From: a virus
DNA: 21,165 nucleotides
Virus record (IMG/VR): IMGVR_UViG_3300028597_000431
Coordinates: 1 to 21,165 of that record
Reading direction: 5' to 3' (one strand)
Within the stretch, counting starts at the first letter, position 1; every line of letters starts with the position of its first letter. The notes under the pieces are model-generated. The model had not been told where the DNA came from, made no database searches, and saw only the letters and a program-made list of their open reading frames with translations. The translations under genes and the position numbers were made by a program. Of this stretch, positions 5,395 through 18,823 are shown piece by piece.

Positions 5395-5586
5395 ATGGCA
5401 AGACGATCTGAGGTTGACCGGCGAGCTAGCCGGGGCTGGGTCCGCCAATCGGTTAGTGATTATGGCATGCACAAGGACGCCCCCGCGCCGGTGTTACCAA
5501 TGGCGTTGCTACCACGTGGGGTGGTGAGGGTCCGCCCCTTGCAGTATGAGTTGCGCCGTGCGCAGAGCAGGGGCCAGCGACGCTGA
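5395..5586 (+). CDS. Small basic hypothetical protein (63 aa)
   Basis: A 63-residue Arg-rich protein (MARRSEVDRRASRGWVRQ at the start, RRAQSRGQRR at the end) with a Pro/Leu-rich middle. There is a GGAG ribosome binding site about 10 bases upstream. Its TGA overlaps the ATG of the first glycosyltransferase by one base (TGATG at 5584-5588). No family is recognised. The high positive charge would suit nucleic acid or polyanion binding, but that is only composition. The tight junction makes it likely to be real and co-translated with the island. Confidence 0.6.
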   Translation: MARRSEVDRRASRGWVRQSVSDYGMHKDAPAPVLPMALLPRGVVRVRPLQYELRRAQSRGQRR

Positions 5587-6371
5587 TGGAAACCGTACGT
5601 ATATTCGTGGGGTGTGCGTCTAACAATGAGGACCTAGAGAGTCAGGTCGTCCTTGAGTACACCCTGCGCAAGTTTGCGTCGCAGCCGTTGCAGATCACCT
5701 GGATGCAGTTATCCAGGGATCCCTACAGCCCCTTCTACTCGTCACCGGAGCGCGGCCAGGGCTGGCGCACGCAGCAGTGGGCCACCCCGTTCTCTGGATT
5801 ACGGTGGGCGATACCGGCGTTGTGCAAGTTCCACGGAAAGGGTATTTATCTGGATAGTGACTTTATCTTTCTAGATGATATTGCCAAGCTTTGGAACCAA
5901 CCTATTGCCGAAGGTCGGCTAATCATTGCTGCTGACCGCAGTCGTCTAGATTGCTCAGTGTGGAATTGCGCGAAGTTCGCAGGCGAGACCTGGGACCTGA
6001 CCTGGCTCCAGCGCAAGGAGGGGTCAGCGACGGCGGCGGCCAGCCGTCTGAACGCTAACACGATACAGCCCTTTGCGGACGGTAACTGGAACGTGATGGA
6101 TATATCGATGCCGGCGGATATTAATACTCCTTCAATTAAGGCTATTCATTACACGCAGATGCATACCCAGCCCCAACTCAAGTACGCTATCCCGCGCCTG
6201 CGCGCGGCCGGTACCAAGCACTGGTACACTCGGGCGACCAAGCCCCACCCGCGCGAGGACCTACAAGCCCTGTTCGACCGTGAATATGAGGAGGCTCAGT
6301 CTAAGGGCATTACGATTGCTAAGTACCAGAAGGAACCCTACGGGAAGTACACTATTCGAGGAATAGGCTGA
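5586..6371 (+). CDS. GT-A (family 8-like) glycosyltransferase
   Basis: A 261-residue soluble protein with a GT-A nucleotide-sugar fold pattern: an N-terminal strand RIFVGCASN (residues 5-13), the aromatic-rich substrate region WRTQQWATPFSGLRWAIPAL (about 60-79), and a catalytic DxD motif in KGIYLDSDFIFLDD (D90-S91-D92) that would bind Mn2+ and a UDP-sugar. A C-terminal HYTQMHTQP (188-196) supplies the His expected to contact the metal or diphosphate in GT8-like enzymes. It is the first enzyme of the island, with one-base overlaps to both neighbours. The donor sugar and acceptor cannot be read from sequence. It is one of three DxD enzymes here, with those at 15518 and 17240. Confidence 0.85.
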   Translation: METVRIFVGCASNNEDLESQVVLEYTLRKFASQPLQITWMQLSRDPYSPFYSSPERGQGWRTQQWATPFSGLRWAIPALCKFHGKGIYLDSDFIFLDDIAKLWNQPIAEGRLIIAADRSRLDCSVWNCAKFAGETWDLTWLQRKEGSATAAASRLNANTIQPFADGNWNVMDISMPADINTPSIKAIHYTQMHTQPQLKYAIPRLRAAGTKHWYTRATKPHPREDLQALFDREYEEAQSKGITIAKYQKEPYGKYTIRGIG

Positions 6372-7447
6372 TGCTGCGGGAATGCTTCCAGCACCTAGGC
6401 ACCTTGGAACGCAAGCGTATAAGCACAGCACCGAACGTGGTGCTAAGGCTAAACCGGGGGGAACGGGTGGAACCCCTGCCCCGGGACCTACTAACGGCTA
6501 TGACGTACGCTGTGAGGGCCTCGAGCATCCAACAATACCCGGACTATGCCCCCTTCTATACCCGGCTAGGGCTGCACGTGGGAATGCCCCCCTCACAGCT
6601 GGTGGTGGGGGCGGGTATAGAAGAGTTTATCCGCACGTTAATGTTCCTTTGCTGCGAGCCTAAGGAGCGGGTGGCGGTACTGTGGCCCACCTGCGCTATG
6701 TACGAAATCTACTCCCGGGCCTTTGGGCTGCGGCTAATGAAGATGCTGACAGAGCCCGGTACCCAGACTCCTATGTCGTCATTGATTCATGTGTTCAAGG
6801 CAGTCGAAGGCCTGAAGCTGATCTTCATACCCAACCCTGGCCAGCCGGTGGAAACCTGCTACAACCTGGATGACCTAGAGGCACTAGCCGCCTGGACGGC
6901 CAGCCAGGGTATCACGCTCGCGATTGACGAGGCCCACTACGGCTTTGGTGCGCCCACGGCCCAGGCGTTGATACAGCGTTGGGGGCATGTGCTCGTCCTG
7001 CGCACGTTCTCCAAGTTCTTCGGGGGCGCGGGCCTGCGCGTGGGATTCGCGATGGGACAGGAGCCCTTGATTAAGGCATTACACGCGGTGCGTCCCTCCG
7101 GAGAAATCACTGGTCCCTCGCTGGCTATGGCGACCGTAGCACTAGATCGGTTTACGGAGTTTGAGACGAACGCCTTATACGTGATCGCAGGGCGTGACTA
7201 TCTACGCAAGGCTGTACGAAGTCTAGGTCTGCGGGCTTGGGGCAGCTTCGGCTTCTCAGTACTGATAGAGTTTGCTTCAGAGGAGGTGGCTGTACTGGTG
7301 GCGCATCGGTTGGAGGAGCAGGGCATCTACGTTAAGGCAGGTCTTCCACCCCCGGTGGAGAAGTGCATGCTGGTGGCCTGTGGTTACGTTCCAACGATGC
7401 AGACATTCTTTACAGCGTTACGTGATGTCGTACACAACGTCAACTAA
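6371..7447 (+). CDS. PLP-dependent aminotransferase, HisC/CobD-like (class I/II)
   Basis: A 358-residue fold-type I PLP enzyme of normal length for the histidinol-phosphate aminotransferase / threonine-phosphate decarboxylase group. Visible signatures are PDYAPFYTRLG (57-67), VVGAGIEEFI near 78-87, IDEAHYGFG (185-193, with the Asp that pairs with the PLP ring), and RTFSKFFGGAGLRVGF with the Schiff-base Lys at K215. The usual PNNPTG loop is PNPGQPVE (154-161), a departure. Its start overlaps the glycosyltransferase stop by one base. In a sugar-tailoring island it might aminate a keto-sugar or make an amino-alcohol substituent; amino-acid biosynthesis seems unlikely because no other pathway gene is present. 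The substrate is unknown. Confidence 0.85.
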   Translation: MLRECFQHLGTLERKRISTAPNVVLRLNRGERVEPLPRDLLTAMTYAVRASSIQQYPDYAPFYTRLGLHVGMPPSQLVVGAGIEEFIRTLMFLCCEPKERVAVLWPTCAMYEIYSRAFGLRLMKMLTEPGTQTPMSSLIHVFKAVEGLKLIFIPNPGQPVETCYNLDDLEALAAWTASQGITLAIDEAHYGFGAPTAQALIQRWGHVLVLRTFSKFFGGAGLRVGFAMGQEPLIKALHAVRPSGEITGPSLAMATVALDRFTEFETNALYVIAGRDYLRKAVRSLGLRAWGSFGFSVLIEFASEEVAVLVAHRLEEQGIYVKAGLPPPVEKCMLVACGYVPTMQTFFTALRDVVHNVN

Positions 7448-7457
7448 GGTGGTAGTC

Positions 7458-8153
7458 ATGCGAGGCGAATTTGTCTTTAAGGAAGACGGTATCGGAGGGT
7501 TGAAGTTCGTAGGGGACTTCGAAGGTCTATACCAGGCCGAGGACGATCCCTGGCAGCAGGTGGGGGCAGAGGGGCCCATGCCTGACTACAACCGGCACTC
7601 GCGTGCGCGCCTGCTAGCGGTGGCACGGCGTCATGCCAGCAATTTTGATGCCCTACCTATCAAGGGCCTGGAGGTGGGGTGTGGGCTCGGGGCCGTCACG
7701 ACCCTGTTGAACGCAGCCGTGCCCTGCTCTGAGTGGGACGGTACTGACATATCACAGTCGGCAATTACGCAGGCCGCCAAGACTAATCCCGACCGGCGGT
7801 TCTGGGTGGGTGATATAACTAATCCAGGCTTTGTCCCCGATGGCGCACCCGGGCGGGGCTGGTACCATATGGTCGTGCTGGGGCAGCTGCTGTGGTACGT
7901 CCTGCATCGCATAGATCCGGTTGTGGTTAACTGCCACCAGCTTATTCGTCCAGATGGTTTGCTGATTATCAGCCAGGCCTTCCTGAACCACCAGCGCTAC
8001 GGTCGGGAGATGTGCGACGGGTTCCCTGGGTTACTACAGTTCTTCCTGTCGCCCGACAACTGCGCCCGGTACTTTAGGATTATCGAGGCCAGCTACGACG
8101 ACAGCGGCAAGTATATCCATAATGACGGACTACTCGTTTTGCGAAGGATCTAG
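7458..8153 (+). CDS. Class I SAM-dependent methyltransferase
   Basis: A 231-residue protein with the Rossmann SAM-binding motif I LEVGCGLGAVT (71-81), an acidic end of strand beta-2 in GTDIS (D97), motif VGDITN, and a post-core segment IRPDGLLIIS. I chose the ATG at 7458 because AAGGTGG lies just upstream at 7446-7452; an earlier in-frame start at 7272 would overlap the aminotransferase widely and adds non-homologous sequence. It probably methylates a small molecule or sugar in the island's product. The acceptor is not predictable. Two bases separate it from the next gene. Confidence 0.83.
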   Translation: MRGEFVFKEDGIGGLKFVGDFEGLYQAEDDPWQQVGAEGPMPDYNRHSRARLLAVARRHASNFDALPIKGLEVGCGLGAVTTLLNAAVPCSEWDGTDISQSAITQAAKTNPDRRFWVGDITNPGFVPDGAPGRGWYHMVVLGQLLWYVLHRIDPVVVNCHQLIRPDGLLIISQAFLNHQRYGREMCDGFPGLLQFFLSPDNCARYFRIIEASYDDSGKYIHNDGLLVLRRI

Positions 8154-8154
8154 C

Positions 8155-8424
8155 ATGACACCGATCGTAGGATACTTTAATTGGCGGCAGACCCTGAACG
8201 GTGGGGTGACGTACGAGAAGGTTCTTAAGGAGCATGTGGATCATTGGCGGGCCAGTAACAAGCACTACTACGATCAGGTGTACAAGGCCCGGTTGCTGGC
8301 GACTACGGAGTTGACTGCAGAGCAATGGATACTCCCGCTCCATGAATTGGCAAAGTTGTTTCCAGATTACAACGGAGTTCCTGATGCCACTAAACGAAGC
8401 GACGAAGAAGAACCTTCAACGTAA
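8155..8424 (+). CDS. Hypothetical protein (89 aa)
   Basis: An 89-residue soluble, probably helical protein starting MTPIVGYFNWRQTLNGGVTY and ending in a charged tail (DEEEPST). GAAGGA at 8143-8148 sits 6 bases upstream of the ATG, which decides this start over an in-frame ATG at 8122 inside the preceding gene. Its last 41 bases overlap the start of the radical SAM gene, whose own ribosome binding site lies inside it, so the two are probably translationally coupled. No family is recognised. By position it could be a partner protein of the radical SAM enzyme, but no RiPP-recognition motif is evident. Confidence 0.6.
   Translation: MTPIVGYFNWRQTLNGGVTYEKVLKEHVDHWRASNKHYYDQVYKARLLATTELTAEQWILPLHELAKLFPDYNGVPDATKRSDEEEPST
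8374..8377 (+). promoter_or_regulatory. Ribosome binding site for the radical SAM gene
   Basis: GGAG lies 6 bases before the ATG at 8384, inside the preceding reading frame. It selects 8384 as the start rather than the in-frame ATG at 8342, which lacks a comparable site. Confidence 0.6.
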
Positions 8425-9295
8425 GTCCGCCTACGTTGATGTTGTGCAATTAAAAGACGGCGTGCCGCTGCCGTCCTGGATCGACATCTCTCTGACGGAG
8501 TTGTGTAACCGTTCGGCGGGACACGCCAACGCTTGTCCGTTCTGCCCACGCATAGATCCGAAGTGGGTCCCCAATCAGAACCTACACATGTCAATGCAGA
8601 CGGCATCTAAGATCGCTACGGAGCTAGACGAGTGGGGGTTCCTGGGCTCGGTAGTGTTCTGTGGGTTTGGGGAACCGCTGCTACATCCTAAGCTCGCTGA
8701 CGTGGTATCCTTGTTCACGTGCCGGGTCGAGGTCGTCACCAACGGGGATTTTCTAGGGCCTGAGAAAATTGCCAAGCTGCGGAACTCCGGTGTGGATTAT
8801 TTCGTGGTTAGTATGTACGATGGTCCCCAGCAGATTGCGAAGCTCCAGAAGGCCTTTACGGACGCGGAGTGTCCCCCGGAGTACTACCTACTCCGGGATC
8901 GCTGGCACTCAGAGGCCGACGCCTTCGGCCTAAAGCTGACTAACCGGGCCGGAACTGTGACGGTAGGGGATCAGGAACCAGTGGACACGAGCCACCCCTG
9001 CTGGTATACGACCTACATGATGCAGCTGGACTGGAACGGGGACGTGCTACTCTGCCCGCAGGACTGGCATCGGCGGGTGAAGTTCGGGAACGTGAACACT
9101 GAGAGCCTGCTCGATATTTGGACCTCCAAGCGTTTACACAAGCGTCGTACTAGCTTGTCACGCGACCGCACGGGGTTGGAACCGTGTAAGGATTGTAACT
9201 GCGACGGTTGTTTGCACGGGCATAACCACTTGGAAGCTTGGGGCTTAAATAAGCCCGTGCGTCGCGAGGACGCAGTGGAGGAGGCCCAGTTATGA
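8384..9295 (+). CDS. Radical SAM / SPASM-domain enzyme with CX9CX2C motif
   Basis: A 303-residue radical SAM protein. The cluster motif is C41, C51 and C54 in LTELCNRSAGHANACPFCPR, a CX9CX2C spacing instead of the usual CX3CX2C. Then come GFGEPLLHP (94-102, GGEP-like SAM-binding region) and EVVTNGDFL (116-124). The C-terminal SPASM-type auxiliary cluster region has C206, C224 and a CKDCNCDGC group (C268, C271, C273, C276), with the typical LDWNGDVLLCP and FGNVNTESLLDIW segments. SPASM enzymes modify peptides, proteins or sugars by radical chemistry. Here it lies between methyltransferase and oxygenase genes and shares an ATGA junction with the oxygenase. All ligands for two clusters seem present, so it should be active. 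The substrate is unknown. Confidence 0.88.
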   Translation: MPLNEATKKNLQRKSAYVDVVQLKDGVPLPSWIDISLTELCNRSAGHANACPFCPRIDPKWVPNQNLHMSMQTASKIATELDEWGFLGSVVFCGFGEPLLHPKLADVVSLFTCRVEVVTNGDFLGPEKIAKLRNSGVDYFVVSMYDGPQQIAKLQKAFTDAECPPEYYLLRDRWHSEADAFGLKLTNRAGTVTVGDQEPVDTSHPCWYTTYMMQLDWNGDVLLCPQDWHRRVKFGNVNTESLLDIWTSKRLHKRRTSLSRDRTGLEPCKDCNCDGCLHGHNHLEAWGLNKPVRREDAVEEAQL

Positions 9296-9954
9296 ACGTA
9301 GCTGTAGGATGCGGTATGCAGACAGCTGTTAAGCAGGCTGTCAAGGCGATCCGCAACGCCGAGGTTCTGGACGACCCTTGGCCACATCTTATCGTCAACG
9401 ACTTGTTCCCCAACAGCTTCTATCTGCTGATGGTCAACAAGCTCCCTCCTACCAGCGCCTGGAAGGCTTTCAACCAGTTCCGATCCTTCTACTGGCTGGA
9501 GTATAGCGAGGGCGACCGGCCTAACGGAATTCATACGCGCCCACCTGTGGATGGGTTCTGGGATGAGTTTCGGGAAGCCCTCTTCGACTCATTGTGGATG
9601 GAGTTGGAGAACCGGCTAGATGTGGTGGGTACTAGCATCGGTGCGCAGCTAATGCACGATCGCCCTGGCTACCAGATTGGCCCTCACACTGATACGTCCA
9701 ACAAGCTGGTCACGGGCCTGCTCTACCTTCCCAAGACGGGGTCGGACGCGAAGCAGGGCACGGTGCTGTGTAAGGGTAGGGTTCCGGACCCGTCCGGCAA
9801 GGGCCACAAGCCTGGTCCTGACTATGCACCGGTCAAGACAGTTCCCTACGTCCCCAACAGCGCTTTGTTCTTTATGCGGACGGACGTCTCCTACCATTGT
9901 GTTAAACCCTCCCCAGTAGAGCGTTGGCTGCTGGCGTTTGACGTGTTCAGGTGA
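9292..9954 (+). CDS. Fe(II)/2-oxoglutarate-dependent oxygenase (hydroxylase)
   Basis: A 220-residue double-stranded beta-helix oxygenase. The metal triad is H132-x-D134 (in GYQIGPHTDTSNK) and H202 (in TDVSYHCV), with R211 placed to bind the 2-oxoglutarate carboxylate. Flanking strands TGLLYLP and YVPNSALFF match the prolyl-4-hydroxylase-like 2OG-Fe(II) superfamily. It would hydroxylate a carbon on a sugar, lipid or protein side chain using O2 and 2-oxoglutarate. The start overlaps the radical SAM stop (ATGA at 9292-9295), so the two enzymes are made together and may act on one substrate. An N-terminal phrase DDPWPHLIVNDLFP is typical of phage members of this family. Confidence 0.87.
   Translation: MNVAVGCGMQTAVKQAVKAIRNAEVLDDPWPHLIVNDLFPNSFYLLMVNKLPPTSAWKAFNQFRSFYWLEYSEGDRPNGIHTRPPVDGFWDEFREALFDSLWMELENRLDVVGTSIGAQLMHDRPGYQIGPHTDTSNKLVTGLLYLPKTGSDAKQGTVLCKGRVPDPSGKGHKPGPDYAPVKTVPYVPNSALFFMRTDVSYHCVKPSPVERWLLAFDVFR
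9949..9953 (+). promoter_or_regulatory. Ribosome binding site selecting the GTG start at 9959
   Basis: AGGTG lies 5 bases before the GTG at 9959. The paralogue at 12478 begins at the equivalent residue, which supports this start over the TTG at 9938. Confidence 0.5.
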
Positions 9955-9958
9955 TGCT

Positions 9959-10600
9959 GTGCATGATGTCGCAATTATCGGGCATGGCCTGACTCCAGAG
10001 GGCCAGGGCTGGGGCCACCGTATAGATGCGACTCCAGTGGTGGTTCGTATGTGGAACTATCACTGGCAGAACTTACTGGACTATGGGGAGCGTTACGACT
10101 TTGGGTTCTACGAAATCTCCCCAACGGAGATGGCCCGCTTCTACAAGCATAATTGTCGCACGCCCGCGCGAGGCTGGGTTGCGACCCGGCTGCTAAAGCC
10201 GTATGAGGGACCGCTACCGGAGAATACTACGGTCTGTGACGCCTCTAGCTGGGACGACGACGGACGGCGGCTAGGTGGATTAGGGATGAAGGGTAGGTTG
10301 CTGTTGACGCGGGGAGTGCGGGCGGCCTGCTGGGCGCTGACAAAGTTCATGTCCCCGGGCCAGTCTATGGTACTGGTGGGCTTCGATAACGTGTACACAG
10401 GCCGTACGCTGTCCTCTAAGGAGGGCTTTCCGCAGAGCTACATTGAGTTTCCAGCTGCTTATCCAATGGTGCGTTACGACAACGCCCCACATACGGAAAC
10501 CAAATCAGGTAATCATGATTTTGCTGTTGAAGGACCGTTGCTTAATCTGTTGGCGAAGCGTGCGGGCATCAAGCTCGACCACGCTCAGGATGTCTGGTGA
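9959..10600 (+). CDS. GT29-like (sialyltransferase-motif) glycosyltransferase, copy 1
   Basis: A 213-residue protein if started at GTG 9959. Three segments resemble the sialylmotifs of GT29 enzymes. The first is an L-like region (VAIIGHGLTPEGQGWGHRID, residues 4-23, then VVVRMWNYHW). The second is an S-like region (LLLTRG with downstream MVLVGFDN, about 115-144). The third is a VS-like H-x4-E in NHDFAVEGPLL (H186, E191). It is much shorter than eukaryotic sialyltransferases and has no membrane anchor, so it would act in the cytoplasm. The gene at 12478 is a full-length paralogue of the same size. A CMP-sugar donor is only a family-based guess, and no CMP-sialate synthesis gene is present. A looser relationship to GT42 or DUF115-like folds is the main alternative. 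Confidence 0.62.
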   Translation: MHDVAIIGHGLTPEGQGWGHRIDATPVVVRMWNYHWQNLLDYGERYDFGFYEISPTEMARFYKHNCRTPARGWVATRLLKPYEGPLPENTTVCDASSWDDDGRRLGGLGMKGRLLLTRGVRAACWALTKFMSPGQSMVLVGFDNVYTGRTLSSKEGFPQSYIEFPAAYPMVRYDNAPHTETKSGNHDFAVEGPLLNLLAKRAGIKLDHAQDVW

Positions 10601-10612
10601 GGGAGGCTAGCT

Positions 10613-11194
10613 ATGTCATTTGATGCTATCTGGGACTCTGAGCGTCTTAAGTACGAGACAGTCTGGGGTGGCTATCCAGAGTATCGTACGCAGGCGGATG
10701 GGGACCCTGTGGTCGACTTGGCGTTCAAGCAGCTGGGGTGTAAGCCCGGGGAGTCGCTGATCGACTGGGGCTGTGGGAAGGGTACGCCCGCCCAGCGGCT
10801 ACAGGCTAAGGGACTAAAGGTAACCGGCTTCGACATCGCTCGGAACTGCCTAGACAAGGATGTCAAGATCCCGCTGATTGTTGGGAGCATGTGGGATCCG
10901 CCACCGTGGGTTCAGCAGGCCGACTATGCTTTTTGTACGGACGTGCTCGAACACCTACCACCTGACCGGTTGGAGCTAGCCCTCTCGCAAATGTGCCGCC
11001 TAACGCGCAAGGCGGCATTCATACAGGTATGTACTGTATTGGATACGTCCGGGCCCAAGATGAATCCACCCATGCGCCTCCACCTAAGTGTGTACTCCCA
11101 CGAGTGGTGGGGTGAGCACCTAGCGGCGTACTGGACGATCGAGGACTCCGGCAAGCGTGGCAAGGCCCGATCCTGGTTCGTCTGTAGGAAGTGA
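10613..11194 (+). CDS. Class I SAM-dependent methyltransferase
   Basis: A 193-residue methyltransferase with motif I LIDWGCGKGTPAQRL (49-63), motif II VTGFDIARN (70-78) and the motif FCTDVLEHLPPDRL (107-120). The C-terminal HLSVYSHEWWGEHL is matched by HVTVRSEEWWRAQI in the methyltransferase half of the fused protein at 14083, so the two are paralogues. A GGGAGG site precedes the ATG. The D-x-GCGKG and DVLEH signatures are common in phage-encoded methyltransferases found in glycan clusters. O-methylation of a sugar is likely but unproven. Confidence 0.83.
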   Translation: MSFDAIWDSERLKYETVWGGYPEYRTQADGDPVVDLAFKQLGCKPGESLIDWGCGKGTPAQRLQAKGLKVTGFDIARNCLDKDVKIPLIVGSMWDPPPWVQQADYAFCTDVLEHLPPDRLELALSQMCRLTRKAAFIQVCTVLDTSGPKMNPPMRLHLSVYSHEWWGEHLAAYWTIEDSGKRGKARSWFVCRK

Positions 11195-11197
11195 GTC

Positions 11198-11857
11198 ATG
11201 CATGTAGAACTCTACGGTCGTAAGATAGACTTAGGCGAACATCCCTCTAAAATGTGCCAGGCGCGTTGGGCGGGGCGCTATTCTCCTGAGCCCGAAACGG
11301 TTGGCTGGATCGAGACCCTCAGCCCCACGGGGGTGTTCTACGATATTGGGGCTAGTGTGGGGACGCATTCTATACGCGCAGCAGTTCATGGTCTATCGGT
11401 CGTGGCCTTCGAGCCTCAGTCGGATTTGGCCGAGGAGCTTCAGGAGACTGTTAGGCGTAACGACCTACCCATCGTAGTTCTCCCCCTAGCACTAAGTAAC
11501 ACACTGGGACGTGGCGTGCTCGGAGCAGGCCGCTCGACGCATACCTTCTATCACAAGGTCGGGGGTACAGTTACGGCCTCGACCGTGGACGAGTGCGTGG
11601 TCGCGTTCGGCTGTCCGAACTACATCAAGCTAGACGTGGACGGTAACGAGTTTGCTATCCTGCGAGGGGCAGCGGAGACCCTGCCTTTGGTACGGTCGCT
11701 ACTGGTCGAGATTGATCCGGCTATCCCCGGCCAGGATGACATTCCTAGCTATTTGGAACGGTTTGGGTTTACCTACAATCCCGCGCAGATTAAGCGGGAC
11801 AAGATTACTACCGGTAAGTATGCCGGCACCGCCAATTGGATTTTCTACAGACCCTAG
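11198..11857 (+). CDS. FkbM family methyltransferase, copy 1
   Basis: A 219-residue FkbM-type O-methyltransferase: SAM-binding FYDIGASVGTHSIRA (47-61), VVAFEPQ (68-74), the FkbM hallmark YIKLDVDGNEFAIL (142-155, usually KIDVEG-E), and LLVEIDPA. FkbM enzymes methylate hydroxyl groups on sugars and polyketides and are frequent in polysaccharide and flagellin-glycan loci. The ATG follows the previous stop by three bases. A second FkbM gene is at 16553. The two share only the family core, so they probably methylate different positions. Confidence 0.87.
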   Translation: MHVELYGRKIDLGEHPSKMCQARWAGRYSPEPETVGWIETLSPTGVFYDIGASVGTHSIRAAVHGLSVVAFEPQSDLAEELQETVRRNDLPIVVLPLALSNTLGRGVLGAGRSTHTFYHKVGGTVTASTVDECVVAFGCPNYIKLDVDGNEFAILRGAAETLPLVRSLLVEIDPAIPGQDDIPSYLERFGFTYNPAQIKRDKITTGKYAGTANWIFYRP

Positions 11858-11913: not shown

Positions 11914-12420
11914 ATGGGAAGACGGGATGTTGCTACGAATACTGGGAATGGGAACCGGCAGATTACGGATATAGGTGCGACGGCCGAGCGGGTCACTCCT
12001 GATGACCCCCGGGTGGTATCGTTCCTTAACGATTACACGTCTATGCAGCGCCATCGGGACCAACTCCTGGGTATCGTCGAGCATCGGGACCTGGAGATTG
12101 CACGGCTCAATGATCGGGTCTCCCTACTCCAGCACGACCTGACGCGGACGCAGACCGCCCGCGATGAGTTCCAGAAGGGCTACTTCGAACTCAAGGCCCA
12201 GCTGGCTATTCTCACCACGTCAGCTATCTCAGCATGCGATCAGGTGCGGGTGGTGGCGGAACGAGCGTTGAGTTCGGCTAAGTCCGCGATGCTGGAGAAC
12301 GGCATCGTGGAGGACGTCAATCAGGACGGGTCCCCCAAGCTGACCGATGTGGAGACGGAAATGGCATCGTTGGCGGCAGTAGCCAACGCAACCGGCGTTC
12401 CCGAGCGCGAGCAGGCGTAG
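11914..12420 (+). CDS. Coiled-coil hypothetical protein (168 aa)
   Basis: A 168-residue soluble protein with a strong heptad-like coiled-coil stretch from about residue 43 to 100 (RDQLLGIVEHRDLEIARLND and following LLQHDL segments), a low-complexity N-terminus, and an acidic, Ala-rich C-terminus. There are no membrane segments or catalytic motifs. GAGGAG lies upstream of the ATG and a 56-base spacer separates it from the FkbM gene. It is unlike the enzymes around it and may be an oligomeric scaffold or a virion accessory protein. No family is recognised. Confidence 0.65.
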   Translation: MGRRDVATNTGNGNRQITDIGATAERVTPDDPRVVSFLNDYTSMQRHRDQLLGIVEHRDLEIARLNDRVSLLQHDLTRTQTARDEFQKGYFELKAQLAILTTSAISACDQVRVVAERALSSAKSAMLENGIVEDVNQDGSPKLTDVETEMASLAAVANATGVPEREQA

Positions 12421-12426
12421 TACTAG

Positions 12427-12460
12427 CCTGGGCGGTGTGTACCCGCGCGCACCGCCCGGG
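12427..12460 (+). other. Strong GC-rich stem-loop without a T tract
   Basis: A 13-bp stem with two G-T wobbles (arms 12427-12439 and 12448-12460, core gggcggtg / caccgccc) and an 8-base loop. It begins 6 bases after the coiled-coil gene stop and ends about 6 bases before the AAGGA site of the next gene. No U-run follows, so it is more likely an RNA-stability or partial-termination element than a classical terminator. Confidence 0.5.
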
Positions 12461-12477
12461 GCTGGGAAAGGATTCCT

Positions 12478-13119
12478 ATGACAATAGCGGTGATTGGGCA
12501 TGGGCGTTCTCCGGAAGGTAAGAGTTGGGGCTCTAGGATAGATGTCTGTTCTACTGTGGTTCGGTGTTGGGACTGGCACTGGCAGCACCCACGTGACTTT
12601 GGATACCAATATCATTACGGGTTATTTGTACTCACCCCTAGAAACTTTCGACTATTTAGTGAGCACAATCAAAGACGTCCCGAGCGCGGGTGGCTTGTAT
12701 ACCTGGGTAAACCAACCTCCTGTCATCTACCGGATAGCTCGCAACTGGTCGACACCACCCGATGGTGTGACCTTGGACGGGCGCTAGGCGGGCAGGGGCT
12801 TAGTGGGGGCTTCACGCTCACGCGCGGGTGCGCTATGGCGGCCTGGGCTATAGAGCACGCTGGTAAGGGGGAGGAGGTTATCCTGGTCGGATTCGATAAC
12901 GTGCTGTGTGGGATCAACAAGCCGATAGAGGAGTCCTTCTGCCCAGAGTACTGGGCTATGCAGAGTCTCTACTGGGACGAAAAGAAGACCGACAAGATTT
13001 ATCCTGTTGGCGAGGCCAAGACGGCCACGCATGATATGTCGGTGGAGAAGCCTTTGCTAGAAGCACTGGCATCTAGTAACAATGTGCCACTAAAATTCGC
13101 ACAGGAGGTTTGGGAATGA
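12478..13119 (+). CDS. GT29-like (sialyltransferase-motif) glycosyltransferase, copy 2
   Basis: A 213-residue paralogue of the protein at 9959, collinear along its whole length. Shared segments are VIGHGRSPEGKSWGSRID (5-22) with VVRCWDWHWQ, TLTRGCAMAAWAI (113-125), VILVGFDNV (134-142), and HDMSVEKPLLEAL with an H185-x4-E190 pair. These correspond to L-, S- and VS-like sialylmotifs. The middle region (about 40-105) and the segment before the H-x4-E are diverged, as expected if acceptor use differs. AAGGA lies upstream of the ATG. The stop overlaps the next gene's ATG (ATGA at 13116-13119). No secretion or membrane signal is seen. The same caveats on family and donor apply as for copy 1. Confidence 0.62.
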   Translation: MTIAVIGHGRSPEGKSWGSRIDVCSTVVRCWDWHWQHPRDFGYQYHYGLFVLTPRNFRLFSEHNQRRPERGWLVYLGKPTSCHLPDSSQLVDTTRWCDLGRALGGQGLSGGFTLTRGCAMAAWAIEHAGKGEEVILVGFDNVLCGINKPIEESFCPEYWAMQSLYWDEKKTDKIYPVGEAKTATHDMSVEKPLLEALASSNNVPLKFAQEVWE

Positions 13120-13955
13120 AAGTAGCAGCATACATCTTGACTGGCAACGGTCACGCAGCGCTGACGTGCCCTGCTATGGTGGCAGGCGCACGGGCGCAAG
13201 GTGAGACGGTGGACATCCTGTCCGAGAAGCAATACAAAAAGGACCACGCTGACACGTACGACGCGGCTATCTTCTGGGGCTACGTCGAGATCATGCAGAC
13301 CATCATGAACGATTTTAACGCCCGCGAGAAGCCAGTGGTGTACCTGGACCTGGCCTATTGGGAGCGTGGCACCCACTACAAGGTATCTATCGGTGCTCGC
13401 CACCCCACCAAGTACTTCCAGAACTTCCCCCACAACGACTCCCGGCTACAGCGTTGGGGTGTGAAGCTAGAGTCCAAGTGGGTGGACGATGGCACTATCC
13501 TGCTCGTGGGCATGGGGCCGAAGGCGGCCTGGGCCGAGAAGCAGGAACCGGTGGAGAGTTGGGAGAAGAACGCTATCGCCAACCTCAAGCGGTGTACCGA
13601 CCGCCCCATTATCTACCGCCCCAAACCCAGCCAGCACTACGGCAAGCCTATTGCGGGAACTACGTTTGACGTTACCACCCCACTCGAAAAGGCTCTGCGG
13701 AGCAGCTGGGCGACTGTTACCCACCACTCGAACGTAGCTGTGGAGGGGGTGGTCCTAGGCGTACCCACGTTTGCGTGGAGCGGGGTGGCGGTGCCTATGG
13801 GGCTCCAGGACTTCGGTTGTATTGAGGTCCCCTACCGTCCGGACATCGACACGGTGCAGGAGTGGTTGAACGATGTCAGCTACTGCCAGTGGTCCATGGA
13901 CGAGATGAAGGACGGTACCTGCTGGCGGCACCTTCGGTCGGAGGGGTTGGTGTGA
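13116..13955 (+). CDS. GT-B-like glycosyltransferase, capsule-synthesis type
   Basis: A 279-residue protein. An N-terminal Rossmann-like start (MKVAAYILTGNGHAALTCPA) is followed by VVYLDLAYWERG (74-85), HPTKYFQ, PIIYRPKPS (164-172), and a C-terminal TVTHHSNVAVEGVVLGVP (200-217). That last stretch resembles the nucleotide-sugar-binding region of GT-B capsule and Kdo transferases, where S-x-x-x-E-x-x-x-x-G-x-P is typical. SYCQWSMDEM (255-264) closes it. ATG 13116 was chosen for the AGGAGG at 13103-13108 and the ATGA overlap, over a TTG two codons earlier. The N-terminal 300 residues of the protein at 14083 are its paralogue. No acceptor can be assigned. Confidence 0.62.
   Translation: MKVAAYILTGNGHAALTCPAMVAGARAQGETVDILSEKQYKKDHADTYDAAIFWGYVEIMQTIMNDFNAREKPVVYLDLAYWERGTHYKVSIGARHPTKYFQNFPHNDSRLQRWGVKLESKWVDDGTILLVGMGPKAAWAEKQEPVESWEKNAIANLKRCTDRPIIYRPKPSQHYGKPIAGTTFDVTTPLEKALRSSWATVTHHSNVAVEGVVLGVPTFAWSGVAVPMGLQDFGCIEVPYRPDIDTVQEWLNDVSYCQWSMDEMKDGTCWRHLRSEGLV
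13940..13944 (+). promoter_or_regulatory. Ribosome binding site for the 44-aa membrane protein
   Basis: GGAGG lies 7 bases before a GTG at 13952 that overlaps the upstream stop. It is the main reason to call the short membrane protein. Confidence 0.6.
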
Positions 13956-14086
13956 CAGTGACCCTCTTTATCGCATACCTACTGCTATACATCCACGACT
14001 ACTCGGTGTTGTGGTATATAGCCGTGTTCCTGCTGTGGCTCCTCCATCTTTCCGTAACGCACTCCGGAAGGATAGGTCACCAGTGA
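13952..14086 (+). CDS. Small hydrophobic membrane protein (44 aa)
   Basis: A 44-residue protein starting at GTG, with stop/start overlaps of the GTGA type at both ends (13952-13955 and 14083-14086) and a GGAGG site at correct spacing. Residues 2 to about 35 are almost continuously hydrophobic (TVTLFIAYLLLYI, then WYIAVFLLWLLHLSV around a short HDYS turn), which suits one long or two short membrane helices. A polar tail follows (THSGRIGHQ). It is the only clear membrane protein in the window. A holin-like, enzyme-anchoring or regulatory role would all be guesses. Double coupling between two paralogous transferase genes suggests that it belongs to the cassette. Confidence 0.65.
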   Translation: MTVTLFIAYLLLYIHDYSVLWYIAVFLLWLLHLSVTHSGRIGHQ

Positions 14087-15534
14087 ACTACCGCTTCGCG
14101 TTCTACCATTCGTCTAAGATACGTACCCAGATGTTTGGTAGAATGCTGGCGGAGGGTGCACGCCGTCACGGCGATACGGTAGATTTAATCCTACAGGAGA
14201 ACTTTCAACTCGACCACCTAGAGAAGTTCGACGGCGGGGCCAACCTGGGGATGGCGCTGGCCTGCAAACGGCTCATGGACGCCTACCGGGGAGCAGGACG
14301 ACATTTTATATACTTTGACAAGGGCTACTTTGATCGCGACAAGTACTGGCGGCTGTCGATTGATGGTTGGCAACCGCTGTCCTACTTCCAGCGCTTTAAG
14401 CGCGGCCCAGACCGCATGAAGCGGCTCAACATCAAGCTTGGTGATCGTCGCAAGAGTACTGAAGGTATGAACATCGTGCTGGCGGGGGCCTGCCAGAACT
14501 ATCATAACTTCTGTGACTTGCCTACGGTAACCGAGTGGTGCACGGATATTGCGAGAGAGCTCGGTGCTCACTCCTCGCATCCGGTGGTCTATAGGCCCAA
14601 TCCCTCCTGGGCGATACGTCACGAGGACGAGTTCGCACCTATAGAGGGGACCACGTTATCACCCCCACAGGAGCCCTTCGCGCAGACGTTGGCCCGCTGT
14701 CATCTATTGGTCACCCATGGCTCGTCCGCAGCACTAGCTGCGCTGGCCCGGGGCATTCCGGTCTTTATAGTGGGTGACGGTATCTGTAAGCCCATGAGCC
14801 CGAGTTGGCCGCAGTGGTGGCAGAGCGATGTTATTACACGTTGTACGATGCTGGAGCATCCGCACTGGCCTCATATGCGGTTAATCGAGCAGTTCTTTCA
14901 GGATGTGACCTACTGTCAATGGACCCCGGAGGAGTACCGCTCCGGGGTGGCTTGGGAGGAGGTGCGGTTGGCCCTGGCCTACCTACGGGGGAAGCCAGGG
15001 GAGGACACCCCCAATCAGATTATTCGCCAGTACCAGATCATGCATAAGTCCCAGAAGTACTTCCGGGGCCTAAGCGTCATGCAGTATCGGGACGTTATCC
15101 AAAGTCTAATTAAGTCTACTAAGTCCCGTACCCTGCTGGACTACGGCTGCGGTAAGGGTGACCAGTATCTGCATCCCTACAAGGTTAACGAGACTTGGGG
15201 CGTGAGTATTGCCCTCTACGATCCGGCAATAGGTCCCTATGCGGCACTACCTGCCGGTCGGTTTGACGGTATAATTTGTGTGGACGTTATGGAGCATGTT
15301 CCGGAGGCCGTGGTCCCGGATACCTTGCGGCAGATTATTGGCCTAGCGGACAAGTTCGTGTTCTTTGCGATAGCATCGGCCCCCGCAAACAAGAGCCTCC
15401 CGGACGGGCGCAACTGTCATGTCACTGTGCGATCAGAGGAGTGGTGGCGAGCACAGATTGCGGCTGTGGTACCTAAGCGCAGCCCCGTGCGGGTAGAGGT
15501 GATCGTGGTAGGGGCGGATGACGCCGATGACTGA
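14083..15534 (+). CDS. Bifunctional GT-B-like transferase fused to class I methyltransferase
   Basis: A 483-residue two-domain protein. Residues 1-300 are paralogous to the whole of the 13116 product: MNYRFAFYHSSK, HGDTVDLIL, FIYFDKGYFDRDKYW (75-89), PVVYRPNPS (167-175), LLVTHGSSAALAALARGIP (208-226), VTYCQWTPEEYRSG (275-288). After a short linker, residues 340-483 form a SAM methyltransferase with TLLDYGCGKGDQY (350-362), IICVDVMEHVPE (397-408) and CHVTVRSEEWWRAQI. The start is GTG 14083: it aligns with the paralogue's first residue and overlaps the preceding stop. The ATG at 14011 would overlap the membrane protein. Fusion suggests that one polypeptide both transfers and methylates, or that methylation caps the product of the transferase half. 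Confidence 0.72.
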   Translation: MNYRFAFYHSSKIRTQMFGRMLAEGARRHGDTVDLILQENFQLDHLEKFDGGANLGMALACKRLMDAYRGAGRHFIYFDKGYFDRDKYWRLSIDGWQPLSYFQRFKRGPDRMKRLNIKLGDRRKSTEGMNIVLAGACQNYHNFCDLPTVTEWCTDIARELGAHSSHPVVYRPNPSWAIRHEDEFAPIEGTTLSPPQEPFAQTLARCHLLVTHGSSAALAALARGIPVFIVGDGICKPMSPSWPQWWQSDVITRCTMLEHPHWPHMRLIEQFFQDVTYCQWTPEEYRSGVAWEEVRLALAYLRGKPGEDTPNQIIRQYQIMHKSQKYFRGLSVMQYRDVIQSLIKSTKSRTLLDYGCGKGDQYLHPYKVNETWGVSIALYDPAIGPYAALPAGRFDGIICVDVMEHVPEAVVPDTLRQIIGLADKFVFFAIASAPANKSLPDGRNCHVTVRSEEWWRAQIAAVVPKRSPVRVEVIVVGADDADD

Positions 15535-16336
15535 TTTTACGGTGGTTACATCCTGCTCGCTGGAGGGTTGGGCTAGCTACGGTGCTAAGTTCGTAGATAC
15601 GTTTTTGCAGTACTGGCCCAAGGAGGTTGCGCTTTTAATTATCTCCGAGGATGCGATTCCAGTACGGGAGTATACCACCCATTCCGTCTGTCACCTGGAC
15701 CTGGTTGGTAATTCAGCGCGGGCCAGGGACTTCCTAGCCCGCCATAGGGAACATGGCTGGACCCAAGGTGAGGCCGCCTCACCCCGCCCCCCGGGGATAG
15801 CTAGGCGGTGGCCTACCAACGCCGGTAAGAACTTCCGCTATGACGCCTATAAGTTCAGCAAGAAGGTCTTTGCCATAGAACTGGCTGCTGGTCGGCTGGA
15901 TAGCGGTCGCCTGCTCTGGGTGGACGCTGACGTGATAACCTTCGCCCCGGTGCCTGCTGATTTAGCCACCACGCTCCTGCCGTGGGATGCAGCAATCTCC
16001 TGCCTCGCGCGCCCGGGTTATCACTCTGAGTGTGGCTTCGTAGGTTACAACTTGAACCACGTGGCTTGCCGTCCGTTTATTACTACCTTTGCGGATCTCT
16101 ACGCAACGGATGCTGTGTTCGCCCTAGACGAATGGCATGACTCCTGGGTGTTCGATTACGTACGTAAGCTACTTAACACTCCTACCCACCATATTCCGCA
16201 CCGCTCCCAGTCGCATCCGTTTATCAACTCCGAGCTCGGTAAGTACATGGACCACTGTAAGGGCAAGCGGAAGAAGCTCGGTCGCAGCGTAGCCGTCGAG
16301 CAGGTAGTCCATAAGAAGATCACCTACTGGCAATAG
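15518..16336 (+). CDS. GT-A glycosyltransferase with DAD motif
   Basis: A 272-residue soluble protein. An N-terminal strand FTVVTSCSLEGW is followed by KNFRYDAYKFSKKVFAI (104-120), then the catalytic DxD in RLLWVDADVITFAPVP (131-146, D136-A137-D138). GFVGYN and a C-terminal HPFINSELGKYMDHCKG are typical of GT8-like phage enzymes. It would transfer a sugar from a metal-bound nucleotide sugar. The gene overlaps the preceding fused gene by 17 bases. A second ATG at 15527 is an alternative start. It is clearly diverged from the other two DxD enzymes, so it is probably not a redundant copy. Confidence 0.82.
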   Translation: MTPMTDFTVVTSCSLEGWASYGAKFVDTFLQYWPKEVALLIISEDAIPVREYTTHSVCHLDLVGNSARARDFLARHREHGWTQGEAASPRPPGIARRWPTNAGKNFRYDAYKFSKKVFAIELAAGRLDSGRLLWVDADVITFAPVPADLATTLLPWDAAISCLARPGYHSECGFVGYNLNHVACRPFITTFADLYATDAVFALDEWHDSWVFDYVRKLLNTPTHHIPHRSQSHPFINSELGKYMDHCKGKRKKLGRSVAVEQVVHKKITYWQ

Positions 16337-16347
16337 AGGAGCACATA

Positions 16348-16581
16348 ATGTCTAATCCTGCACTAAACGTCGGTTTGTCCGTTGATCTGGTTGTGGGCCG
16401 GATCATAGACCCCCCTCTACAGGTACAGGCCAGTGTGCGGGGCCAGGTTATCATCCTGGGCTTCAGCAACCGAGAGACACAACAGGGGGTGGAGGTGTCA
16501 TTCTCGGAGAAGGCAGCATCCGATTTGATTCAGCTACTAATGGAGACGGTTAATGTGGCAAAAGGTCAAGTTGGGCATTGA
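16348..16581 (+). CDS. Hypothetical protein (77 aa)
   Basis: A 77-residue protein with a beta-rich first half (VGLSVDLVVG, VQASVRGQVIILGF) and a C-terminal helix (KAASDLIQLLMETV). GAGGAG lies upstream of the ATG. Its last 29 bases overlap the FkbM gene, whose GGAG site lies inside it. No family is recognised. It may be a small partner of the flanking enzymes. Confidence 0.65.
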   Translation: MSNPALNVGLSVDLVVGRIIDPPLQVQASVRGQVIILGFSNRETQQGVEVSFSEKAASDLIQLLMETVNVAKGQVGH

Positions 16582-17239
16582 GGGACCTATGAAGATCGTG
16601 GGACAGTGGTACCTACCGGCAGCGGACAACTACTTTGGGCCCTTGCTCGAGCGCACGCCCGAGGGCTTTGAGATCGACCATCTAGAGTGTGCTCTTACGT
16701 TCGTGGAGAAGTTCGACGTTGCGATGGATGTGGGGGCACACATCGGTACCTGGACGGTTAGGCTGGCCAGGGATTTCAAGCAGGTCTACGCCTTCGAGCC
16801 CGCCCCCGACACCTACGAGTGTCTATCCAAGAATTGTGAGAGCTACGCCAACATTTCCCTAAGCCAGTCGGCGATAGGGGCTTATGGAGGTTACGGGCGG
16901 TTGGATAACGACCCCACCCGTCAGGGTAACACGGGTGCGCGTATCCTGCGTGGAATTAAGGGGGAAGGTAGTGTTAAGGTATCTACGTTGGATAGCTTCG
17001 GGCTTAAGGTGCTGGATTTTCTCAAGATTGACGTGGAAGGATACGAAATCGGAGTATTACAAGGGGGCGTACAAACCCTACGGCGCTGCCGTCCGGTGGT
17101 GTTGCTAGAATGTAAGGAGTTTGTGCCTCCACGCTACGGCGGTGTTATGGCAGCTGTAAAATTCCTGGGGGCCTTGGGCTTCACCAAGGTGGGAGGTATT
17201 CGTAATGACTGGGTGTTCCGGCATCAGCGGTTGGAGTAG
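16553..17239 (+). CDS. FkbM family methyltransferase, copy 2
   Basis: A 228-residue FkbM-type methyltransferase, closer to the family consensus than copy 1: AMDVGAHIGTWTVRLARDF (57-75), VYAFEPAPDTYECL (78-91), VSTLDSFGL (143-151) and FLKIDVEGYEIGVLQGG (156-172). GGAG at 16542-16545 precedes the ATG by 7 bases. The expected reaction is SAM-dependent O-methylation of a sugar hydroxyl. The next glycosyltransferase starts on the base after its stop, which suggests that the two steps are paired. Confidence 0.9.
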   Translation: MWQKVKLGIEGPMKIVGQWYLPAADNYFGPLLERTPEGFEIDHLECALTFVEKFDVAMDVGAHIGTWTVRLARDFKQVYAFEPAPDTYECLSKNCESYANISLSQSAIGAYGGYGRLDNDPTRQGNTGARILRGIKGEGSVKVSTLDSFGLKVLDFLKIDVEGYEIGVLQGGVQTLRRCRPVVLLECKEFVPPRYGGVMAAVKFLGALGFTKVGGIRNDWVFRHQRLE

Positions 17240-17959
17240 ATGCGAGAATCGATCTTTGTTGGCTTTGATCCTCGGGAGGCTGCGGCCTTCTTGGTGACGG
17301 TGAGCTCTATACGTCGTCACCTATCCCGCCGGATAAGTATTGTGGGGTTGGAGCTAGATGACCTACGGCGTTCAGGCCTCTATACCCGCCCCACAATCTT
17401 TAATAACGGTCGGTTACTTGATACTATTTCCGAACATCCTATGTCCACCGAATTTGCTATCTCCCGCTTCCTGGTACCTACGCTTGCTGGGAAAGGTTGG
17501 GCATTGTTTCTAGATTGCGACATGCTGGTATTATCGGACCTGGCAGATTTGTTTGACCTTGCGGACGATCGCTACGCCGTGATGTGTGTTCAGCATAACC
17601 ACGACCCCAATAATACTACCAAGATGGGTGGGCAGTTGCAGTCTACCTACTTCCGCAAGAATTGGTCGTCAGTCTGCTTATTCAACTGTGACCATCCGGC
17701 TAATAAATCATTGACTACGCATTTGGTTAATTCCGCACGGGGGCTACACCTCCATCAGTTCTGCTGGCTGGAGGATAAGGATATTGGAGCCCTACCATCA
17801 GAATATAATTTCCTGGTAGGAACCGACACACCTACCGACATCCCGCCTAAGATTGCTCACTATACGGAGGGAACGCCCGATCTACCGGGATATGAGACGG
17901 CTCCCTATGCGGATTTGTGGCGTTCTGAACTTAGAAAATCAGCGCATCTATTTCTGTGA
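17240..17959 (+). CDS. GT-A (family 8-like) glycosyltransferase
   Basis: A 239-residue protein with the pattern of a GT8-like group often seen in phages: IFVGFDPREAAAFLVTVSSI (5-24), GLYTRP (46-51), HPMSTEFAISRFLVPTLA (66-83), DxD in WALFLDCDMLVLSDL (87-101, D92-C93-D94), WSSVCLFNCDH (142-152), WLEDKDIGALPSEYNFL, and a C-terminal HYTEGTPDLPGY (207-218) with the expected metal-binding His. It should be an active cytoplasmic nucleotide-sugar transferase. It is the last of the DxD enzymes in the island. Its TGA overlaps a possible GTG start at 17956. Confidence 0.9.
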   Translation: MRESIFVGFDPREAAAFLVTVSSIRRHLSRRISIVGLELDDLRRSGLYTRPTIFNNGRLLDTISEHPMSTEFAISRFLVPTLAGKGWALFLDCDMLVLSDLADLFDLADDRYAVMCVQHNHDPNNTTKMGGQLQSTYFRKNWSSVCLFNCDHPANKSLTTHLVNSARGLHLHQFCWLEDKDIGALPSEYNFLVGTDTPTDIPPKIAHYTEGTPDLPGYETAPYADLWRSELRKSAHLFL

Positions 17960-18084
17960 TAAGGGGCTTTACGGGTATAGTGATCCAGGGTACATGCGGT
18001 AATGCTGACCTAGTGTATAAGCAAAAGCAAGAAAACGTCGTTAGGGTCTCAGCGCGTGCGGTAGCATCTAAATTGGTATCATGA
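17956..18084 (+). CDS. Possible small coupled protein (42 aa)
   Basis: The 121-base gap between the last DxD transferase and the next gene holds an unbroken frame from GTG 17956 (GTGA overlap with the upstream stop) to TGA 18082-18084 (ATGA overlap with the downstream start). It encodes 42 residues, basic in the second half (KQKQENVVRVSARAVASKL), with no family. No good Shine-Dalgarno site precedes the GTG; a later GTG at 17980 is possible. The DNA is locally more A-rich than its surroundings, so a spacer or regulatory region is the alternative. TATAAG at 18016-18021 could be a -10 box but has no convincing -35. Confidence 0.35.
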   Translation: MIRGFTGIVIQGTCGNADLVYKQKQENVVRVSARAVASKLVS

Positions 18085-18272
18085 TCTCCATGTGGGCCGG
18101 CAAACCGTTCTCGGAGCTTAACGATACTGAGCTTGAAGAAGCTACGGCGTTCTTTCAGGCTGCTCACGATCGCTTGATTGATTTTGCGCCCACCCCGGTG
18201 TGGGTGTTCCTGGTGGATCAGATTTCCCTCCTCACGGTGCTTAAGGTACAGCGCCTGAAGCCCGCTGCATGA
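18081..18272 (+). CDS. Hypothetical helical protein (63 aa)
   Basis: A 63-residue protein: an acidic helical first half (FSELNDTELEEATAFFQAAH) and a hydrophobic stretch (VWVFLVDQISLLTVLKV). Its TGA overlaps the next gene's ATG (ATGA at 18269-18272). The start may be the ATG at 18081 or the one at 18090; neither has a strong ribosome binding site, which would fit translation coupled to the frame upstream. No family is recognised. Confidence 0.55.
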   Translation: MISMWAGKPFSELNDTELEEATAFFQAAHDRLIDFAPTPVWVFLVDQISLLTVLKVQRLKPAA

Positions 18273-18823
18273 AAGCGCTGGTCTTCGGGCGCGGGCGTGG
18301 GGTGTGGGATGAGATGGCTGCGGCGCAAAAGCTAGCAGCGTTTGATTGTATAATCGGGGTAGGTTCTGCTGCCGTAGACTATTCGGGTCCACTGGATCAC
18401 TGGGTGAGCTTTCACCACAGCGTATTCCCGGAGTGGGCCGCCGCGCGTTCCCGCAAGGGTCTTCCCCCAGCGCGAGTCTATTGGTCATCAGTCTATCGCG
18501 GCTCACAGTCGGTACGCCTTGGGGCCGCCTACCCCGTCCGGTTCGTCCGCCAGGAGGGTGGATCGTCGGGACTGATTGCTGTGATGGTGGCCTTTGAACT
18601 AGGGGCCCATCGCGTGGTCCTAGCGGGAGTGCCCATGGATGGGGACTATGGGCAGTATGATACTAAATTGCCTTGGAAGGAAGCTTTGATCCACCGAGAG
18701 ATATGGCGTAGGGATTTACATAAGTTACTAGGTCGGGTGCGTTCGATGTCAGGCTGGACCCAGGAGCAGCTAGGCACCCCGACCACTAAATGGTTGCTGG
18801 AAAATGACTGTACTGCAGTTTAG
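18269..18823 (+). CDS. DUF115/MptE-like Rossmann protein of phage glycan islands
   Basis: A 184-residue protein beginning KALVFGRGRGVWDE (2-14, with a Gly-rich first loop), then FDCIIGVGSAAVDYSGPLDHWVSFH (25-49), GGSSGLIAVMVAFELGAHRV (97-116) and VLAGVPMDG (117-125). The layout (Gly loop, a statement of position with DHWVSFH, a GSSG..A..A....G segment, a closing G-x-P-M-D) recalls the DUF115/MptE-like and GT29/42-like folds, in which a nucleotide or sugar nucleotide is bound. I infer a transferase or glycan-related role. Catalysis is not proven by motifs. It overlaps the Mu F-like gene by 20 bases, which ties the island to the head genes transcriptionally. Confidence 0.5.
   Translation: MKALVFGRGRGVWDEMAAAQKLAAFDCIIGVGSAAVDYSGPLDHWVSFHHSVFPEWAAARSRKGLPPARVYWSSVYRGSQSVRLGAAYPVRFVRQEGGSSGLIAVMVAFELGAHRVVLAGVPMDGDYGQYDTKLPWKEALIHREIWRRDLHKLLGRVRSMSGWTQEQLGTPTTKWLLENDCTAV

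Follow-up and report, generated by a model that had tools for sequence, protein, structure and literature searches.

A putative glycan-tailoring island among phage head genes contains a cassette that recurs in unrelated viral contigs

What is an island rich in glycan enzymes doing in the middle of the genes that build a phage head? The question is raised by the IMG/VR virus record IMGVR_UViG_3300028597_000431, whose positions 1 to 21,165 were analyzed (21,165 nucleotides, the window, which makes up the entire record). Between the head-tail adaptor gene Ad1 and the head gene MuF lies an island of 13.4 kb with 20 genes, all on the + strand (5395-18823), in agreement with the extent and co-direction described in an earlier note on this DNA. 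The window is not an assembly chimera, since 98.7-100% identical copies of it occur in several IMG/VR contigs from sister metagenomes and the 44,406-bp contig G001 spans it (G001 base 12001 is window base 94). With slightly better than even confidence, we read the island as a set of soluble, late-expressed enzymes that decorate a virion head or neck protein with a tailored glycan. The earlier note had reached virion-protein decoration from the absence of other genes, which is a weak argument. The reading is nevertheless the best supported, because a four-gene cassette recurs in unrelated head modules, two of its genes are found at a bacterial flagellin locus, and the island proteins lack membrane spans.

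The island is made of two modules, A and B. Module A consists, in this order, of a HisC-like aminotransferase (AT), a NodS-like methyltransferase (MT1), a BtrN-like radical S-adenosylmethionine (SAM) enzyme (rSAM) and a GT29-like transferase. Viral scans with the radical SAM, GT29 and aminotransferase profiles recovered the complete order AT-MT1-rSAM-GT29, on a single strand, in nine other viral contigs (L067, L068, L069, L079, L080, L081, L085, L086 and L087), which amount to about seven lineages given the close pairs L068/L069 and L085/L087. Identities between the window and these contigs were 38-47% for AT, 33-43% for MT1, 53-61% for rSAM and 34-44% for GT29. A further contig, L084, held AT-MT1-rSAM without GT29, and L080 additionally shared the 2-oxoglutarate (2OG) oxygenase (34%, immediately behind its radical SAM gene), the first FkbM methyltransferase (43%) and a GT-B-like gene (23%). 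Against the portal phrog_113 of this phage, the cassette was found on four further unrelated head types, five in total: a lambda-type head in L067 (portal phrog_21, major capsid protein (MCP) phrog_29), a podovirus-type head in L068/L069 (portal phrog_156, MCP phrog_334), an HK97-type head in L080/L085 (MCP phrog_10 in both, portal phrog_12 in L080), and that of L079 (portal phrog_145). In every contig with sufficient flank it was placed among head genes (portal, MCP, connector). In L067 it begins 75 bp after the MCP; in L068, L080 and L085 it comes after either the MCP or a neighboring phrog_4603 gene; and it lies directly behind a head-tail adaptor in L081 and L086 and behind the portal in L079. 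The distances of AT, MT1 and rSAM correlated with each other (Mantel r 0.79-0.89, p ≤0.005, inflated by near-duplicates). As judged from these comparisons, module A is passed as a whole among unrelated phages. AT, MT1 and GT29 had no match in 50,697 phage records at the limits used. Ahead of the cassette, a phrog_4603 gene annotated as 'alpha-2,3-sialyltransferase' stands by capsid or connector genes (L068:6075-6701, with relatives in L069, L080, L081, L085 and L086).

The insertion site separates the second module from the first. Portal, Ad1 and MuF are consecutive both in RDJL Phi 1 and in Rhizobium phage RHph_TM3_3_9. A MuF-profile scan yielded 55 viral loci. Ad1 and MuF are separated by 0.5-2.4 kb, with no similar island between them, in RDJL Phi 1 and some 25 relatives; among the loci where both genes could be placed only L102 departs from this range (8.5 kb), and the gap in this phage is 13.6 kb. 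By gene order, the island is thus seen as an insertion at a conserved site. Related islands lie between Ad1 and MuF in L102, just upstream of Ad1 in L091 and upstream of MuF in L093. Common to these close sister phages is module B, comprising two GT-B-like proteins, a GT-A enzyme, an FkbM methyltransferase, another GT-A enzyme and an MptE/Maf-like protein, with identities to the window of 30-37% (GT-B), 28-32% (GT-A 2), 48-53% (GT-A 3), 36-39% (MptE-like) and, in L091 and L102, 34-35% (FkbM2). The AT, MT1, radical SAM and GT29 genes were not in the sister islands (L102, L091, L093). Since the sisters hold the B genes but not the A genes, module A came from elsewhere and module B belongs to the lineage. 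The earlier note had suggested checking by gene-neighborhood comparison whether the whole set travels together: module A does so, complete in nine viral contigs, but the island as a whole splits, with module B present in sisters without A. Ahead of module A, GT-A 1 is a paralogue of GT-A 3 and has a 38% match in the sister phage L089. The MptE/Maf-like protein, for which neither a Pfam nor a PHROG hit was obtained, is encoded immediately ahead of MuF in L102 and L091, and in three phages the end of its gene reaches past the start of MuF. Within the sister island of L091, an FAD-oxidoreductase-like gene (L091:3365-4360) was read by eye as a possible sugar mutase.

This arrangement bears on whether the island could be late cargo, its enzymes simply benefiting from a strong late promoter, with a different molecule of the host or phage, be it a metabolite or host flagellin, as their target. 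Islands are gained and lost between close relatives, as would be expected of cargo, and two bacterial relatives occur at flagellin genes. However, the cassette being kept among portal, MCP and connector genes in five unrelated head types would be left unexplained, as would the overlap of the MptE/Maf-like gene with MuF, and we consider this explanation quite unlikely.

What module A might do was approached through its nearest solved relatives. The AT profile was closest to HisC (3.7e-33) and keeps the residues of fold type I pyridoxal phosphate (PLP) enzymes, K215 (TFSK) and D186 (DEA), both invariant; its score lies below the HisC equivalog cut-off (TIGR01141, 155.9 bits vs 276.55). For MT1, the nearest structure was NodS (3ofj, 6.1e-10), followed in the list by other amine methyltransferases, and the curated NodS-family cut-off was not reached (PF05401, 18.4 vs 24). 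NodS is an N-methyltransferase acting on an amino-sugar. The radical SAM profile was nearest to BtrN (E 5e-33), and its auxiliary-cluster cysteines C206, C224, C268 and C271 are all invariant. BtrN, whose auxiliary cluster is ligated by four cysteines, oxidizes an alcohol to a ketone on an aminocyclitol (PMC9012708). With BtrN, HisC and NodS as nearest relatives, an order of oxidation, amination and N-methylation can be proposed, in which the radical SAM enzyme would oxidize a sugar, or a group linked to a sugar, at a hydroxyl to give a ketone, AT would turn the ketone into an amine, and MT1 would N-methylate it. The logic resembles that of butirosin, where radical SAM alcohol oxidation also precedes transamination and from which the nearest solved enzyme, BtrN, derives. 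Unlike the DegT-like aminotransferase of butirosin, the one found here is HisC-like, and 2-deoxy-scyllo-inosamine is an unlikely substrate. The radical SAM open reading frame (ORF) opens at 8342, with a probable start at 8384. As a marker of the system, the radical SAM gene alone was rejected, as BtrN-like genes are common in marine T4-like contigs in other contexts. A 27-28% relative of this gene is also present in Campylobacter myophages (INPHARED matches H26-H31), some of whose records are annotated BtrN.

The fourth cassette enzyme was assigned by fold. All eight fold-search matches with E <0.001 of the AlphaFold model of GT29b (pLDDT 82, pTM 0.84) were GT29 enzymes (TM 0.46-0.52), the best solved ones being sialyltransferases. 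At the sequence level, the two GT29-like genes of the earlier note fared less well: GT29b stays below the Pfam cut-off (PF00777, 19 bits vs 23), and the GT29 profile had no convincing match in the PDB and none in bacterial genomes, so that only the fold search succeeded. Following the usual sialylmotif definitions (VS motif H-x4-E; motif L), the VS motif H185-x4-E190 is invariant in the complete GT29-like members, and a GxG..E..WG..ID..V.R block is found in all. The GT29 assignment is supported by the predicted fold. In the viral island L035:2094-10297, a relative of the GT29 genes exceeds the PF00777 cut-off (35.9 bits) and occurs together with a cytidylyltransferase (PF02348, 1.6e-38), a HAD phosphatase, two radical SAM genes, an aminotransferase, a 2OG gene and a GT-A gene. 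The cytidylyltransferase and the above-threshold GT29 gene fit a CMP-sugar donor. The GT29-like enzyme would accordingly be a candidate for the transfer of a CMP-activated sugar, with host CMP-Kdo or a nonulosonate as the likely donor, while the GT-B-like, GT-A and FkbM enzymes of module B may serve chain extension and O-methylation.

In bacteria, most relatives of the radical SAM gene have MT1 alongside. Two species, Paraglaciecola algarum and P. mesophila, have their MT1-rSAM pair at a distance of 3-6 kb from flagellin, and a FleQ-type regulator was confirmed at one of these two loci. A class III aminotransferase accompanies the pair in Paraglaciecola and three other bacterial loci, and hence the same trio of AT, methyltransferase and radical SAM enzyme is formed with a non-homologous aminotransferase. 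Locus L074 from a Nitrosomonadales metagenome-assembled genome was ruled out as an independent host, being 96% identical over 9.5 kb to P. mesophila (L075), and may be misbinned. Maf is known to O-glycosylate Ser/Thr of flagellin with CMP-nonulosonate or CMP-Kdo (PMC11339370). The phage island resembles that system in the MT1-rSAM pair found at Paraglaciecola flagellin and in its own Maf/MptE-like gene, but differs from it in the GT29-like transferases and in a HisC-like enzyme in place of the class III aminotransferase. By analogy, a capsid or neck protein would be the natural counterpart of flagellin as acceptor, and the glycan could be assembled in the cytoplasm on Ser/Thr of the capsid, MuF or a repeat-rich fiber protein in the manner of Maf. 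The last of these possible acceptors is the 1257-aa protein beside Ad1 with its at least 38 Ser/Thr-rich repeats.

The main rival reading places the glycan on the host. A host surface polysaccharide (O-antigen or capsule) would be remodeled during infection, with a block to superinfection or the release of progeny as the benefit. Pelagimyophage host-recognition clusters, GT8-rich islands with radical SAM cassettes, have been interpreted as modifying host lipopolysaccharide (LPS) or its O-chain (PMC7029224). Like the island described here, they are hypervariable, lie by virion (tail fiber) genes and combine GT8 with radical SAM genes; genes of the GT8 type and of the FkbM family typically belong to LPS tailoring, and the related locus L035 itself sits between two tail-fiber-like ORFs. 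However, the published clusters stand at tail fibers, and neither the AT-MT-rSAM-GT29 order nor an MCP/portal site was described for them, whereas the cassette studied here is bound to head genes across unrelated phages. Family scans and hydrophobicity revealed no flippase, polymerase, lipid-linked transferase or membrane protein among the island proteins, none of which contains a segment hydrophobic enough for a membrane span (highest 19-residue mean 1.74). The clearest bacterial pairs, moreover, adjoin flagellin rather than an LPS locus. Remodeling of the host surface is thus regarded as unlikely.

A third alternative is that phage DNA is the target, with the enzymes of the island hypermodifying or glycosylating it for restriction evasion. 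DNA can be a substrate for phage glycosyltransferases, for 2OG oxygenases and for radical SAM enzymes. The absence of DNA-hypermodification genes, which the earlier note had stressed, tells little because the early genes, the expected site of nucleotide genes, fall outside both the window and the 44-kb contig. Still, no base hydroxymethylase, nucleotide kinase or TET/JBP-type gene was seen (family scans in the window, the rest of the 44 kb by eye), GT29 and FkbM enzymes are not known to modify DNA, and the island is positioned among head genes. We therefore hold this explanation to be very improbable.

Virion decoration, the favored reading, builds on gene content and order, cassette mobility, head-gene position, the GT29-type fold and the missing membrane spans; from these we infer late expression, substrate, reaction order, donor and virion target. 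Several points weigh against it. Neither a glycan nor an acceptor has been observed, functions such as N-methylation lean on distant relatives, and a position among head genes may merely provide late, strong expression. The radical SAM enzyme of the window has CX9CX2C (CNRSAGxxxxCxFC, a six-residue insert) and not CX3CX2C; the insert defines a phage enzyme clade with L081, L082, L085, L086 and L087, whereas L067, L068, L069, L079, L084 and all bacterial relatives have CX3CX2C. Other bacterial relatives (e.g., L072) were not seen beside flagellin. Two labels, 2OG and GT-B, are weak, and GT-B is the weakest of all (DUF6716 at 26.5 bits vs 27; AlphaFold model pLDDT 46).

Few cases of virion glycosylation are known in phages, with simple enzyme sets. 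In the mycobacteriophage Che8 and relatives, covalent glycans on capsid and tail-tube proteins were linked to phage glycosyltransferases (Freeman 2023, as recounted in PMC11256854 and PMC12619734). As in those phages, glycan enzymes are encoded by the phage, here soluble and placed with virion genes. Instead of the few glycosyltransferases in those accounts, the island here has about 15 enzymes within head genes, among them a radical SAM enzyme, an aminotransferase and GT29-like ones, and in the Maravista report the glycosyltransferases lie near the genome 3' end, away from the left-arm structural genes. Literature searches returned nothing relevant on radical SAM together with FkbM in phages, on phage BtrN or on radical SAM in flagellin glycosylation. 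The earlier note's statement that no described system matches is right for the exact set, but virion glycosylation and GT8/radical SAM phage islands had already been published. The new part is the portable capsid-linked cassette, a sound finding with a likely interpretation. Carried across unrelated capsid types and absent from about 50,000 phage records, it would suggest capsid sugar decoration as a widespread, selected trait of uncultured phages, with stability, hiding from receptors or defenses, and adhesion as candidate benefits. More tentatively, unrelated uncultured phages may exchange these four genes as a dedicated capsid-sugar cassette. Through it, the major capsid or neck protein would receive a CMP-derived sugar that has been aminated and N-methylated, which would make the cassette a phage counterpart of flagellin glycosylation and bring a radical SAM route into virion glycan synthesis. 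The link to the flagellin locus offers a culturable bacterium for direct study of the core chemistry.

All features are summarized in Table 1. Pfam and PHROGs support the aminotransferase, the radical SAM/SPASM enzyme and the five methyltransferase domains (two FkbM) listed in the earlier note. Its three GT-A enzymes are essentially correct, two being GT8-type below the cut-off and the third lacking a Pfam hit while having an invariant DxD, and its 2OG oxygenase and GT-B-like proteins correspond to signals below threshold. Missing from that list were the MptE/Maf-like gene as well as a methyltransferase and a DUF115-like protein (label by eye) upstream of the window.

Table 1. Features of the window, in order of position.
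Feature	Position	Strand	Basis
LamG/ConA-like virion protein, C-terminal part (context)	3..605	+	PF13385 7.9e-9; phrog_10356 virion structural 1.6e-18
Repeat virion protein, 1257 aa (context, possible acceptor)	607..4380	+	repeat count and spacing
gp77-like fiber-tail adaptor, left flank	4393..4671	+	PF23148 4.3e-25
Ad1 head-tail adaptor, left border	4679..5233	+	phrog_477 5.9e-27
63-aa ORF overlapping GT-A 1	5395..5586	+	no family match
GT-A 1, GT8-type, YLDSDF (DxD)	5586..6371	+	PF01501 0.0019, under cut-off
HisC-like PLP aminotransferase (module A)	6371..7447	+	PF00155 8.5e-32
NodS-like methyltransferase MT1 (module A)	7458..8153	+	Methyltransf_12 2.5e-10
100-aa ORF, doubtful gene, overlaps both neighbors	8122..8424	+	no match in libraries or relatives
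BtrN-like radical SAM/twitch enzyme (module A)	8384..9295	+	SPASM 1.3e-14; Radical_SAM 3.3e-8
2OG-Fe(II) oxygenase	9292..9954	+	PF13640 0.00059, 21.2 bits vs 27 cut-off
GT29-like transferase a (module A)	9938..10600	+	40% to GT29b; 37-44% in viral contigs
Methyltransferase MT2	10613..11194	+	PF13489 3.5e-10
FkbM methyltransferase 1	11198..11857	+	PF05050 1e-9; homologue in L080
168-aa coiled-coil orphan between FkbM1 and GT29b	11914..12420	+	no significant family; no relative found
GT29-like transferase b	12478..13119	+	fold search: ST6GALNAC2/ST8SiaIII best, E 2e-4, prob 1.0
GT-B-like protein a (module B)	13110..13955	+	34% in sister phages; PDB GT9 E 0.0099
GT-B-like N half fused to methyltransferase (module B)	14011..15534	+	DUF6716 3.8e-6; Methyltransf_23 3e-9
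GT-A 2 (module B)	15518..16336	+	no Pfam hit; DxD invariant in alignment with L091, L102
77-aa ORF	16348..16581	+	no match
FkbM methyltransferase 2 (module B)	16553..17239	+	PF05050 6.5e-20
GT-A 3, GT8-type (module B)	17240..17959	+	PF01501 4.8e-4 (under cut-off); phrog_28018 4.9e-52
63-aa ORF	18081..18272	+	no match
MptE/Maf-like putative glycosyltransferase, overlaps MuF start (module B)	18269..18823	+	hhalign 92% to MptE/phrog_4603 group
MuF head morphogenesis protein, right border	18804..19814	+	PF04233 5.2e-15; phrog_3517 1.2e-77

The earlier note had called the junctions coupled throughout, which is slightly generous: from 5395 into MuF, 12 of the 20 overlap or abut, four have gaps of 3-12 nt and another four have gaps of 55-121 nt. 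That the 100-aa ORF encodes a RiPP-like substrate for the radical SAM enzyme was considered and dismissed, since relatives have no conserved counterpart of it. A marine T4-like contig, L023, holds methyltransferase, radical SAM, MptE-like, 2OG and aminotransferase genes together. In G001, the left part reads portal (phrog_113), methyltransferase, DUF115-like protein, LamG/repeat virion proteins, gp77 adaptor and Ad1, and the island is followed by MuF and a protease/scaffold region, then by a capsid-like protein (at L016:6674-7666) and by the tail tube and tape measure, the last items being by-eye sequence readings. The repeat virion protein contains at least 38 Ser/Thr-rich repeats, each of 22-24 aa (PAQGNLTLSTxAP), and the same repeats recur further upstream in the 44-kb contig.

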